From Arthrobacter sp. UKPF54-2 (GTDB lineage: Bacteria > Actinomycetota > Actinomycetes > Actinomycetales > Micrococcaceae): 64,000 bases of DNA. Made by a program: the position numbers and the translations under genes. A model generated the notes under the pieces. It was not told where the DNA came from and ran no database searches. It saw only the letters and a program-made list of their open reading frames with translations. The stretch spans positions 1,612,001 through 1,676,000 of the forward strand of contig NZ_CP040174.1 of assembly GCF_007858535.1 (NCBI RefSeq), read 5' to 3'. Positions 38,877-41,852 of this stretch are shown piece after piece; position 1 is the stretch's first letter; each line of letters opens with the position of its first letter.

Positions 38877-38917
38877 GGGGTCGATCCTAGGGCGGACTCC
38901 CGCCTGAGCCGGGTAGC

Positions 38918-39229: not shown

Positions 39230-39253
39230 TTGGCTTAGGCAAGCCTAAGCCAA
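39230..39253. promoter_or_regulatory. Iron box (DtxR/IdeR/DmdR-type operator)
   Basis: A perfect palindrome with 11-bp arms, TTGGCTTAGGC and GCCTAAGCCAA, and AA at the centre. It contains the core TTAGGCAAGCCTAA, the actinobacterial iron-box form. It starts 37 bp before the GTG of the adenylation/acyltransferase gene and overlaps its likely transcription start (possible -10 TATCCT at 39221-39226). Fe(II)-loaded DtxR-type repressor would switch the gene off in iron-rich conditions. Confidence 0.88.
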
Positions 39254-39266
39254 TACCATCGTCCGG

Positions 39267-41852
39267 GTGACCACGCAGCTTGACTTTATGCGGGTGCCCT
39301 TCGCCGCCGACCTTGCGAGCTACGGGGACCGACCCGCCATCCTGACCGACACCCTGACCCTGAGCTACCGGGAGCTGGCCGAACGCGTCGACGAACTCGC
39401 CCTCCGGCTCGGCCCCGAACGCCGGCTCGTGGCGTTGACCGCCGCGAACGACGTCGGCTCGCTCGTCGCCTACCTGGCGGCGCTGACGGGCGGCCACCCT
39501 CTCATCCTCCTGCCCGAGGACAAGCCCGCCGCCCTGGACTCCCTGCTTGCGGCCTACGACCCCGACGTCGTGCTCCGGCCCGGCGGCGGGCACCCGCTCC
39601 TGGAGGAAAGGCGGCCCGGCACACGGCACGAGCTCCATCCGGATCTTGCCCTGCTGCTCAGCACCTCCGGATCCACGGGCTCGCCCAAGCTCGTCCGCCT
39701 CTCGCACACCAACCTGCAGTCCAACGCCGAATCCATTGCGGCATACCTGGACATCGCCCCGAACGACCGCGCCGCGACGACGCTGCCCATGTCCTACTGC
39801 TACGGGCTGTCGGTGATCAACAGCCACCTGCTCCGCGGCGCAGGCCTGGTCCTCACGGACCTCTCCGTCGTCGACCCGTGTTTCTGGGATCTGTTCCGAA
39901 ACCGTGGGGCGACGGCGTTCGCGGCGGTGCCGTACACGTTCGAGCTGCTCGAACGCGTGGGGTTCGCGGACATGGAGCTGCCCGGGCTGCGCTACGTCAC
40001 CCAGGCCGGCGGCCGGTTGGCGCCGGAGTCGGTGCGCCGGTACGCCGAGCTGGGCCGCCGGAACGGCTGGGACCTCTTCGTGATGTACGGCCAAACCGAG
40101 GCGACCGCCCGGATGGCGTACCTGCCGCCGGAACTCGCCGCCAACGTCCCCGGCGCTGTTGGCGTCGCCGTGCCCGGCGGTTCGTTCCGGATCGACCCGG
40201 TTCCTGGCCTGGAGCACGGCGAACTGGTCTACTCCGGCCCCAACGTCATGCTGGGCTATGCCGAGACCCCGGCGGACCTCGCCTTGGGCCGGACCATCAC
40301 GGAACTCCGCACAGGCGATCTCGCCCGGCAGCACCCCGCAGGAGTGTACGAGGTGGTGGGCCGGCGCAGCAGGTTCGTCAAGATCGTCGGACTGCGCGTC
40401 GACCTGGGGCAGGTGGAACGACTCCTGGCAGACCTCGGCGTGCAGGCGGCCGCGGCCGGGACGGACGACGGCATCGTCGTCGCCGTCGAAGGCGACCACG
40501 ACACCCGCCTGCTGGGCAAGGTCCTCGCCCAGGGGATGGGGTTGCCGCGCGCGGCCCTCCAACTCCACGCCGTCGATGAGCTCCCGCGCCTGGCCTCAGG
40601 CAAACTCGACTATCAGGCCGTCCTGGCGCTGTCCCGGCCCGAGCGGGGGACCGTGGCCGCGGAGGCGGGCGCCGACGGCGCCGGCGTCGCCGTCGGCCCG
40701 GGCAGTGTCCGCGGGATTTTCCGGGACGCCCTGGAGCGCGAGGAGATTGCCGACGGCGACACGTTCGTCTCGCTCGGCGGGGACTCGCTGTCCTACGTGG
40801 CCGCCTCGGTGCGGCTGGAGCAGGCCCTGGGCCACCTCCCGCAGGACTGGCACGTGACCCCGGTCCGGGACCTGGAAGAGCGCGCGGGCGGGGTGCCGGT
40901 GCGGAAACGGCGGCGCGTCTTCGTCCCGGTCGAAACGGGCACCGTGTTGCGGGCGGTGGGGATCGTCCTGATCATCGGCACCCACGTTGGACTCTTCACG
41001 TGGCAGGGCGCCGCCCATGTCCTGATGGCCGTGGCCGGGTACAACTTCGCCCGCTTCCAGCTCGCCGGGGAGCGCCTGCCGCGGCTGCGGCGGCAGCTGG
41101 CCAGCGTGGCCAGAATCGTGGTGCCCAGCACGGCGTTCATCCTGTTCGCCTACCTGGCCACCGACAACTACAGCCCGGCCAACGTCCTGCTCCTGAATGC
41201 CGTCATCGGGCCCGAGGCCGTGACCACCCAGTGGCATTTCTGGTTCGTCGAGGTCCTTGTCTACCTGCTCCTGGCCATGACGGCCCTGCTGGCCATACCG
41301 TGGGCGGACCGCGCCGAGCGGCGCTTCCCCCTGCTGCTGCCGCTGGCCCTGACCGGCGCCGGCCTGCTCACCCGCTACGAGCTGGTGGATCCCGGCGTGC
41401 CGCACACGGCGCCGGCGCTCTGGCTCTTCGCCCTGGGCTGGGCCATTGCACGGTCCCGGACGGCGGCCCAGCGGTGTGTGGTTTCGGCCATCGCCGTGCT
41501 GACCGTGCCGGGGTTCTTCGAGAACGCGGCCCGGGAAGGAACGCTGCTGGCCGGGATCCTGCTGCTCATCTGGCTGCCCAGCCTCCCGGTGCCGGCGGCG
41601 CTCCGCAGGCTCACCGTGCTCCTGGCCAGCGCCTCTCTTTATGCGTACCTGGTGCACTGGCTGGTGTACCCGCCGCTCGCCGGAATCAGCCCGGCCGTCG
41701 CCGTGGCGGCCTCGCTCGCCGCGGGGGTGGCGTATTGGGCGCTGTGGACCCGGGCGATGTCCGTGGCCGGCCGGTGGCGGACCGGCGCGCAGCTCCGCAG
41801 GGCGGCCCGGCGGCTGAAAAGTCAGGGGCCGGAGAGCTCCAACCGCGGATAG
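39267..41852 (+). CDS. Adenylation / carrier / acyltransferase-3 fusion, iron-regulated
   Basis: An 861-residue three-part protein. (1) Adenylation domain, about 1-455: STSGSTGSPK (132-141), YGQTEAT (274-280), TGDL (349-352), VGRRSRFVKIVGLRVDLGQVE, and the late lysine in ASGKLDY (Lys446). (2) Carrier domain, about 478-540: FVSLGGDSLSY, with pantetheinyl Ser507. (3) Acyltransferase-3 membrane domain, about 555-845: many helices, His573 in IIGTHVGLF, and QWHFWFVEVLVYLLLAM. It should activate an amino or carboxylic acid, hold it as thioester and pass it to a membrane or exported acceptor, like Dlt logic in one chain. GTG start without a good ribosome site. Controlled by the iron box upstream, so probably tied to iron limitation or a siderophore. 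Confidence 0.88.
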   Translation: MTTQLDFMRVPFAADLASYGDRPAILTDTLTLSYRELAERVDELALRLGPERRLVALTAANDVGSLVAYLAALTGGHPLILLPEDKPAALDSLLAAYDPDVVLRPGGGHPLLEERRPGTRHELHPDLALLLSTSGSTGSPKLVRLSHTNLQSNAESIAAYLDIAPNDRAATTLPMSYCYGLSVINSHLLRGAGLVLTDLSVVDPCFWDLFRNRGATAFAAVPYTFELLERVGFADMELPGLRYVTQAGGRLAPESVRRYAELGRRNGWDLFVMYGQTEATARMAYLPPELAANVPGAVGVAVPGGSFRIDPVPGLEHGELVYSGPNVMLGYAETPADLALGRTITELRTGDLARQHPAGVYEVVGRRSRFVKIVGLRVDLGQVERLLADLGVQAAAAGTDDGIVVAVEGDHDTRLLGKVLAQGMGLPRAALQLHAVDELPRLASGKLDYQAVLALSRPERGTVAAEAGADGAGVAVGPGSVRGIFRDALEREEIADGDTFVSLGGDSLSYVAASVRLEQALGHLPQDWHVTPVRDLEERAGGVPVRKRRRVFVPVETGTVLRAVGIVLIIGTHVGLFTWQGAAHVLMAVAGYNFARFQLAGERLPRLRRQLASVARIVVPSTAFILFAYLATDNYSPANVLLLNAVIGPEAVTTQWHFWFVEVLVYLLLAMTALLAIPWADRAERRFPLLLPLALTGAGLLTRYELVDPGVPHTAPALWLFALGWAIARSRTAAQRCVVSAIAVLTVPGFFENAAREGTLLAGILLLIWLPSLPVPAALRRLTVLLASASLYAYLVHWLVYPPLAGISPAVAVAASLAAGVAYWALWTRAMSVAGRWRTGAQLRRAARRLKSQGPESSNRG

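Follow-up and report, generated by a model that had tools for sequence, protein, structure and literature searches.

A carrier-fused acyltransferase-3 protein of Arthrobacter sp. UKPF54-2 with a predicted iron box, and fbpABC as its recurrent neighbour in relatives

Gene, protein and promoter at the locus

The 64,000-nucleotide stretch of the Arthrobacter sp. UKPF54-2 genome analysed here (the window; contig NZ_CP040174.1, positions 1,612,001 to 1,676,000) contains a gene for an 861-residue protein in which an adenylation (A) domain, a phosphopantetheine carrier domain and an acyltransferase-3 (AT3) membrane domain follow one another in a single chain. A predicted iron box lies at its promoter, and in many relatives the gene adjoins fbpABC, which encodes a putative ferric iron importer; the box and this neighbourhood point to an undescribed way of gathering iron. 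The frame of 861 codons opens with GTG at 39267 and its stop codon ends at 41852. An earlier note on this DNA, made from the letters alone, had described one frame with an A domain, the carrier serine Ser507 and an AT3 domain; the open reading frame (ORF) lies where the note had placed it, and Pfam searches and the alignment of homologues agree with the description. The following features were distinguished (window positions):

39230..39253, no strand: 24-base palindrome with two overlapping 19-base iron-box registers (39230-39248 and 39235-39253), each 15/19 by consensus match
39230..39235, plus strand: candidate −35 element TTGGCT overlapping the box, a weak match predicted from the sequence
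39254..39259, plus strand: −10 element TACCAT, 7 bases 5′ of the GTG start, assigned from the position of TAnnnT in relatives
39267..41852, plus strand: adenylation/carrier/acyltransferase-3 protein, 861 amino acids (ORF, Pfam and homologue evidence)
39306..40640, plus strand: adenylation domain, approximately residues 14-458, with a conserved pocket in which Arg282 is invariant and the Asp typical of amino-acid A domains is missing (Pfam, alignment)
40707..40832, plus strand: carrier (phosphopantetheine) domain, residues 481-522, with the Ser507 codon at 40785-40787 (Pfam, alignment)
40899..41786, plus strand: AT3/TmAT membrane domain, residues 545-840, with R562-X10-H573, H584, E662 and H797 (Pfam, alignment, model)

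The Pfam match to AMP-binding covers residues 14-331 (150 bits, over the cut-off) and that to PP-binding residues 481-522 (24.8 bits against a cut-off of 20.8), with Ser507 inside the motif LGGDSLS. Two matches over their cut-offs and a carrier serine present in all 80 family sequences compared give this part of the protein the adenylation-plus-carrier make-up of a nonribosomal peptide synthetase (NRPS)-like enzyme. The match of the window protein to Acyl_transf_3 (PF01757; residues 560-814) reaches 26.7 bits, under the gathering cut-off of 31. NCBIfam gave 82 matches for the protein; none of the 25 listed was over its cut-off, and an exosortase-associated acyl ligase came nearest. The whole-protein model has a pTM of 0.55, and the domain arrangement in it is not trusted.

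The palindrome has the form TTGGCTTAGGC-AA-GCCTAAGCCAA, with perfect 11-base arms around a 2-base centre. Its description in the earlier note as a perfect DtxR/IdeR-type palindrome holds for the symmetry of the arms but not for the consensus match, which is 15/19; all box scores given here are matches to a 19-base consensus. The length of the inverted repeat was rejected as evidence for a box: repeats at least this long (gap of at most 4) occur at 5 places in the window, and 4 of 20 shuffles reach this length. The core pattern TTAGGYWAGSCTAA has one mismatch-free occurrence in the 3.52-Mb source genome (one contig, 99.96% complete). A degenerate genome-wide search allowing two mismatches was also set aside, because the reversed control pattern gave 39 matches against 10; pattern matches alone are therefore not evidence.

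The family is common in actinobacteria, with 407 encoding stretches found in one scan of a genome collection. Neighbourhoods were compared in the best 80 of these 407 stretches plus the window (81 loci), with genes called by a home-made caller. The 80 stretches come mostly from Arthrobacter and Pseudarthrobacter; other hosts are Kocuria, Sinomonas, Zafaria, Paenarthrobacter, Streptomyces, Micromonospora, Kineococcus and Actinotalea, together with one Nocardioidaceae and one Thermoleophilia assembly. Residue counts refer to 80 sequences (79 relatives and the window protein); L072, which lies at a contig start and whose frame ends early, was left out of these counts and of the tree.

A survey of the same protein for an upstream iron box, as the earlier note had proposed, revealed a box of at least 14/19 ahead of the gene or operon in 67 of the 81 loci. 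These comprise 45 of the 55 standalone loci (window included), all five loci with divergent fbpABC, and 17 of the 20 with fbpABC upstream, where the box precedes fbpA or the gene; the partial locus L072 is without a box of 14/19. None of 810 shuffled upstream regions reached 14/19 and 12 reached 13, a control that covers the regions upstream of the gene, those upstream of fbpA having no shuffle control of their own.

Among 56 relatives aligned from residue 1 (including L078, which has CTG as start), TAnnnT lies 6 or 7 bases 5′ of the start codon in 41, while other distances each account for at most 6. With TACCAT as the −10 element, the box is placed between −35 and −10, as would suit a repressor, and the promoter appears to be leaderless. 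A box at the promoter is accompanied, as in a DtxR/IdeR regulon, by regulator candidates of the DtxR type in the source genome (three Fe_dep_repress matches exceeding the cut-off, of which two are strong). Box scores among the sites looked at in this genome were 17 (fbpABC), 15 (the 861-residue protein gene), 14 (an aconitase-like gene) and 14 (C1:64160). The box-like site of the aconitase-like gene (L098:1332-4145, minus strand) was located at L098:4197-4220 (C1:3219196-3219219), approximately 50 bases before the gene.

Linkage to ferric iron importers

The gene adjoins fbpABC in 25 of the 80 relatives, in two arrangements. In 20 relatives three same-strand genes lie directly upstream, encoding, according to Pfam, a solute-binding lipoprotein, a two-part permease and an ATPase with a TOBE domain, and the gap between them and the gene is −4 to 80 bases. 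In five others (three Streptomyces, Kineococcus and Micromonospora) the same three genes are divergent. A third arrangement, with the gene followed by fbpA, fbpB and fbpC behind a 16/19 box, was found in a distant copy, G060. On a tree of 81 proteins (a quick method, with G060 on a very long branch) 9 changes between the linked and the unlinked state are required, and well-supported branches force at least 6 of them, so the linkage appears to have been repeatedly gained or lost.

The best solved relative of the linked binding-protein type is 7li0, an Fe(3+) ABC transporter binding protein (E 3e-86), while those of the FbpA encoded by the source genome itself are a ferric iron-binding protein and YfuA/SfuA kin (E 6e-139); nearly all further matches are iron-binding proteins. 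An adjacent tyrosine pair, which we take to bind iron in FbpA-type proteins, is present in all 25 linked binding proteins. It stands in the context NHYYLAR in 18, in NHYY of another type in six and in HYYYYGDQ, like that of the own-genome protein, in one (L060); three binding-protein types are thus linked to the same enzyme. Judged by its solved relatives, tyrosine pair and boxes, the partner is a ferric-type binding protein; NCBIfam gives a ferric name to neither the binding protein nor the permease. The box of the own-genome operon is the best of those looked at in the source genome:

C1:736127-740045 (L096:6128-10046): own-genome fbpABC-like ferric transporter with a YfuA/SfuA-type binding protein; 17/19 box at 736127, FbpA start at C1:736228

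The earlier note had read the enzyme as a self-contained acylation machine acting on the envelope. Activation, carrier and transfer do reside in one chain, but the recurrent fbpABC link had been missed, and with it ferric iron acquisition replaces general envelope acylation as the best reading. Envelope remodelling would place the acyl group on a wall polymer, a glycolipid or a lipid, so that a change in surface charge or permeability aids iron-starved cells without chelation; the association with fbp would then come from common regulation and location. The parallel between this architecture and the Dlt and Alm activation-carrier-transfer systems speaks for such a role. So does the available text of a review, according to which characterised AT3 systems mostly acylate extracytoplasmic sugars (PMC9558356). 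We nevertheless regard remodelling as unlikely, because separate lineages show the gene linked specifically to ferric transporters, in an operon or divergently, and because the three fbp families are, besides the enzyme, the only gene families present at over 10 of the 81 loci (the ATPase family includes other ABC ATPases).

The enzyme is present in 9 of 80 genomes drawn evenly from the bacterial family of the window, a patchy distribution. An FbpA homologue (threshold E≤1e-20) was identified in all nine enzyme-bearing genomes against 31 of the 71 others (Fisher p 0.0012), and, judged by their coordinates, the two genes lie side by side or close together in G057, G060 and G079. Only two of the 80 genomes, G000 and G037, are without a FecCD match, and both bear the enzyme (p 0.011); both p-values are optimistic, as the genomes share ancestry.

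The possibility raised in the earlier note that the protein modifies a siderophore, whether made by the cell or scavenged, would agree with the iron box at the gene and with the siderophore-type permeases found in seven of the nine enzyme-bearing genomes. We consider it improbable, and for the source organism the suggestion has lost ground: IucA/IucC, FecCD permease and FTR1 were not found in its genome, and its four carrier-domain matches fall in frames 104, 149, 867 and 1401 codons long, with no multimodular NRPS among them by frame length. No NRPS-independent siderophore (NIS) or NRPS pathway was thus recognised there, these searches gave no support to a siderophore cluster, and the recurrent partner of the enzyme is Fbp.

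The earlier note was right that no siderophore gene stands beside the enzyme: none is present among the seven neighbours scanned with Pfam, which include an AAA kinase, an esterase-like protein, DUF6454, a polyketide-cyclase-like protein and an FMN oxidoreductase, and no iron or envelope theme was found among these seven. The downstream ORF is convergent and overlaps the end of the gene by 31 bases. A tRNA-like stretch suspected near 38900 was not found when tested for. At 1472-1512 the window carries a GC-rich inverted repeat with perfect 19-base arms and a 3-base centre, the longest short-gap repeat found in it and perhaps a terminator hairpin. In Micromonospora relatives, genes for a luciferase-like monooxygenase and an FMN reductase occur near the homologue (L079:537-2263; downstream in L073) and could provide reductive iron release or a tailoring step.

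Active-site conservation, substrate pocket and membrane domain

A protein search scored 7117 relatives, and the best 120 of these are all at least 77% identical; the closest named relatives among the matches listed belong to Arthrobacter and Pseudarthrobacter. Precomputed annotation assigns PF01757 to 119 of the 120 homologues listed and PF00550 to some two thirds of them, and the genes are usually named ‘AMP-binding protein’ or ‘acyl-CoA synthetase’. Two copies on different contigs were seen in Arthrobacter liuii and in one Arthrobacter assembly (L025 and L026; L052 and L063).

Residues invariant in all 80 sequences are K141, E278, D351, R366 and K446 in the A domain, S507 in the carrier, and R562, H573, H584, N593, R596, R606, Y635, W659, E662, Y794 and H797 in the AT3 domain. 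Loss of the carrier serine or AT3 histidine, which in homologues would have spoken against the reading of the earlier note, was seen in none of them, both residues being intact together with the AT3 arginine. The distant copy G060 (37% identical over the carrier-AT3 part) keeps S507, R562, H573, H584, R282 and M273.

Modelled alone, the AT3 part gave a confident model with a ten-helix membrane fold that matches HGSNAT of the AT3 superfamily; Foldseek alone gave no significant match with this model, and the HGSNAT match came from a second look. The low Acyl_transf_3 score is therefore read as divergence, and the transferase fold differs from that of Dlt, as the earlier note had held. A relic of an acyl-CoA ligase, iron-regulated but without an iron role and with an inactive AT3 part, would account for a Pfam score below the cut-off; we find it highly improbable in view of the confident model with the HGSNAT fold and the conservation of R562, H573, H584, W659, E662, Y794 and H797 in 80/80 sequences.

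Two hallmarks of AT3/TmAT proteins are given in the available text of the review (PMC9558356): R/K-X10-H in the first transmembrane helix (TM1), represented by R562 and H573 in all 80 family sequences and in G060, and RxxR in the first cytoplasmic loop, represented by R603-x-x-R606 in the window protein (R606 in 80/80, R603 in 73/80, Val at 603 in G060). The motif VxxFFx(I/V/L)SG(F/W/Y), described there as common to many AT3 proteins (PMC9558356), corresponds to AHVLMAVAGY at 583-592, where the motif end is retained with Ala in place of Ser. The fusion to a carrier suggests that the AT3 donor is carrier-bound instead of acyl-CoA.

The Asp found in the pocket of amino-acid A domains (GrsA position 235) is absent here: a hand alignment to the GrsA/DhbE numbering puts position 178 in its place, which is Cys in 79 of the 80 sequences, Ser in one and Thr in G060. 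Seven of the nine pocket positions (179, 182, 245, 247, 273, 281 and 282) are invariant in 80/80, and position 224 is Thr in 73 and Ser in seven. Because the pocket is invariant or nearly so, it is read as serving one substrate across the family, probably one specific small acid that is not a standard alpha-amino acid. Naming the acid from the pocket residues was attempted and abandoned: the amino-acid Asp is excluded, yet no single acid is indicated. Solved relatives span LgrA, PltF, MenE, oxalate-CoA ligase and PvdL, with no single substrate, and among the 120 A-domain relatives listed the names are generic where given, apart from one ‘Phenyloxazoline synthase MbtB’. Chain 4oxi, presumably AlmE, is among the matches.

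The invariant Arg282 would suit an acidic or hydroxylated acid, although this is a hint only. It could bind the acidic substrate of a carboxylate exporter, in which the AT3 domain would pass the acyl group to water and a chelating acid would be exported at the expense of ATP. AT3 fusion partners include SGNH, racemase and NRF domains, and the fusions with amino-acid racemases (VanT) show AT3 alongside other metabolism, as far as the available texts of two sources go (PMC12423673, PMC9558356). Export would also agree with the neighbourhoods, in which no acceptor-making gene family is widely recurrent beside the enzyme. We give it little credence: we know of no AT3 protein whose task is donor hydrolysis, and the acidity of the substrate is a guess, since an equivalent of Arg282 occurs in related ligases too.

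Known systems and a possible role in ferric iron acquisition

In the Dlt system (DltA-DltC-DltB-DltD) an acid is activated with ATP, held as a carrier thioester and passed by a membrane transferase to an extracytoplasmic target, and the 861-residue enzyme appears alike in each of these respects. Dlt consists of separate proteins, uses D-alanine and has an MBOAT transferase, whereas the enzyme is one chain with an AT3/TmAT fold, an iron box and a pocket without the amino-acid Asp; dltA, dltB, dltC and dltD do not occur together as separate genes at the locus, where Pfam shows no corresponding domain in any of the seven neighbours scanned. AlmEFG, which glycylates lipid A, likewise combines an adenylation enzyme, a carrier and an acyltransferase acting on the envelope, but with three proteins, glycine, another transferase and no iron link. 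The AT3/TmAT proteins OafB, OatA, HGSNAT and GWT1 use acyl-CoA, while here the parts that make and carry the donor are fused to the N-terminal side of the AT3 domain. Adenylation and carrier domains are also fused to a membrane part, though a different one, in the epsilon-poly-lysine synthetase type and in a 1361-residue protein of the source genome (L097:2461-6546), which contains one of the four carrier-domain matches there and which we take to resemble poly-amino-acid synthetase-type proteins; no box of at least 13/19 was found in the 9-kb stretch around the latter.

Ferric importers of the FbpABC/YfuABC/FutABC kind are the recurrent genetic partner of the enzyme under iron boxes. An adenylation/AT3 partner of these importers was not found in the available text of the literature searched, and a single chain with a carrier-fed AT3 domain, an iron box and an Fbp partner is not described in the titles and abstracts searched, most subscription journals lying outside that coverage. 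The parts are known and the logic is like that of Dlt and Alm; the combination stands a real chance of being a new iron-acquisition strategy.

Tentatively, and at close to an even chance, we propose that the enzyme serves in iron starvation and produces either an extracytoplasmic ferric ligand or a surface group that captures ferric iron for the Fbp importer. When iron is present, a DtxR/IdeR repressor would occupy the box between −35 and −10, and in its absence a leaderless mRNA would be made. The A domain would adenylate its specific small acid, and the acyl group would be loaded onto the phosphopantetheine arm of Ser507. From the cytosolic side this arm may reach into the AT3 pore, by the route that acyl-CoA takes in the AT3 superfamily, and the conserved Arg562 and His573 would support acyl transfer to an acceptor on the outer side. 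The product would then help FbpA to collect Fe3+ for FbpBC.

Several observations weigh against this proposal. Chelating chemistry does not follow from the sequence. No fbpABC is present in the three upstream genes of 55 of the 81 loci (window included), and the G050 stretch has no box of at least 14/19. In NCBIfam the nearest matches of the linked transporters are putative 2-aminoethylphosphonate transporters and those for other anions, all scoring far under their cut-offs. The own-genome fbpABC is not orthologous to the linked operons: its FbpA shares only 31% identity with the linked Arthrobacter type, and the linked FbpB finds its best match elsewhere in the genome. In the survey, with its optimistic p-values, 31 genomes have FbpA without the enzyme and seven of the nine with the enzyme have 3 to 9 FecCD matches; G018 and G052, which lack the enzyme, have weak FecCD matches only, weakening the argument from exclusivity. 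G060 differs at pocket positions 178, 179, 224 and 245 and at R603, E662 and H797. Finally, the AT3 donors shown so far are acyl-CoA, and the review, in its available text, argues against a carrier protein (PMC9558356).

A more specific form of the proposal, minimal iron scavenging without siderophores, is possible but doubtful: the carrier-fed enzyme would make a ferric ligand at the outer face of the membrane for FbpABC and would be the only such system in some genomes. Gram-positive Fbp importers take unchelated iron, and the question of what supplies them would be addressed if the proposed role is true. The family would then represent a route to ferric iron that siderophore searches have missed, with the whole biosynthetic step in one gene, and an AT3 pore supplied with its acyl group by a tethered carrier in place of acyl-CoA.
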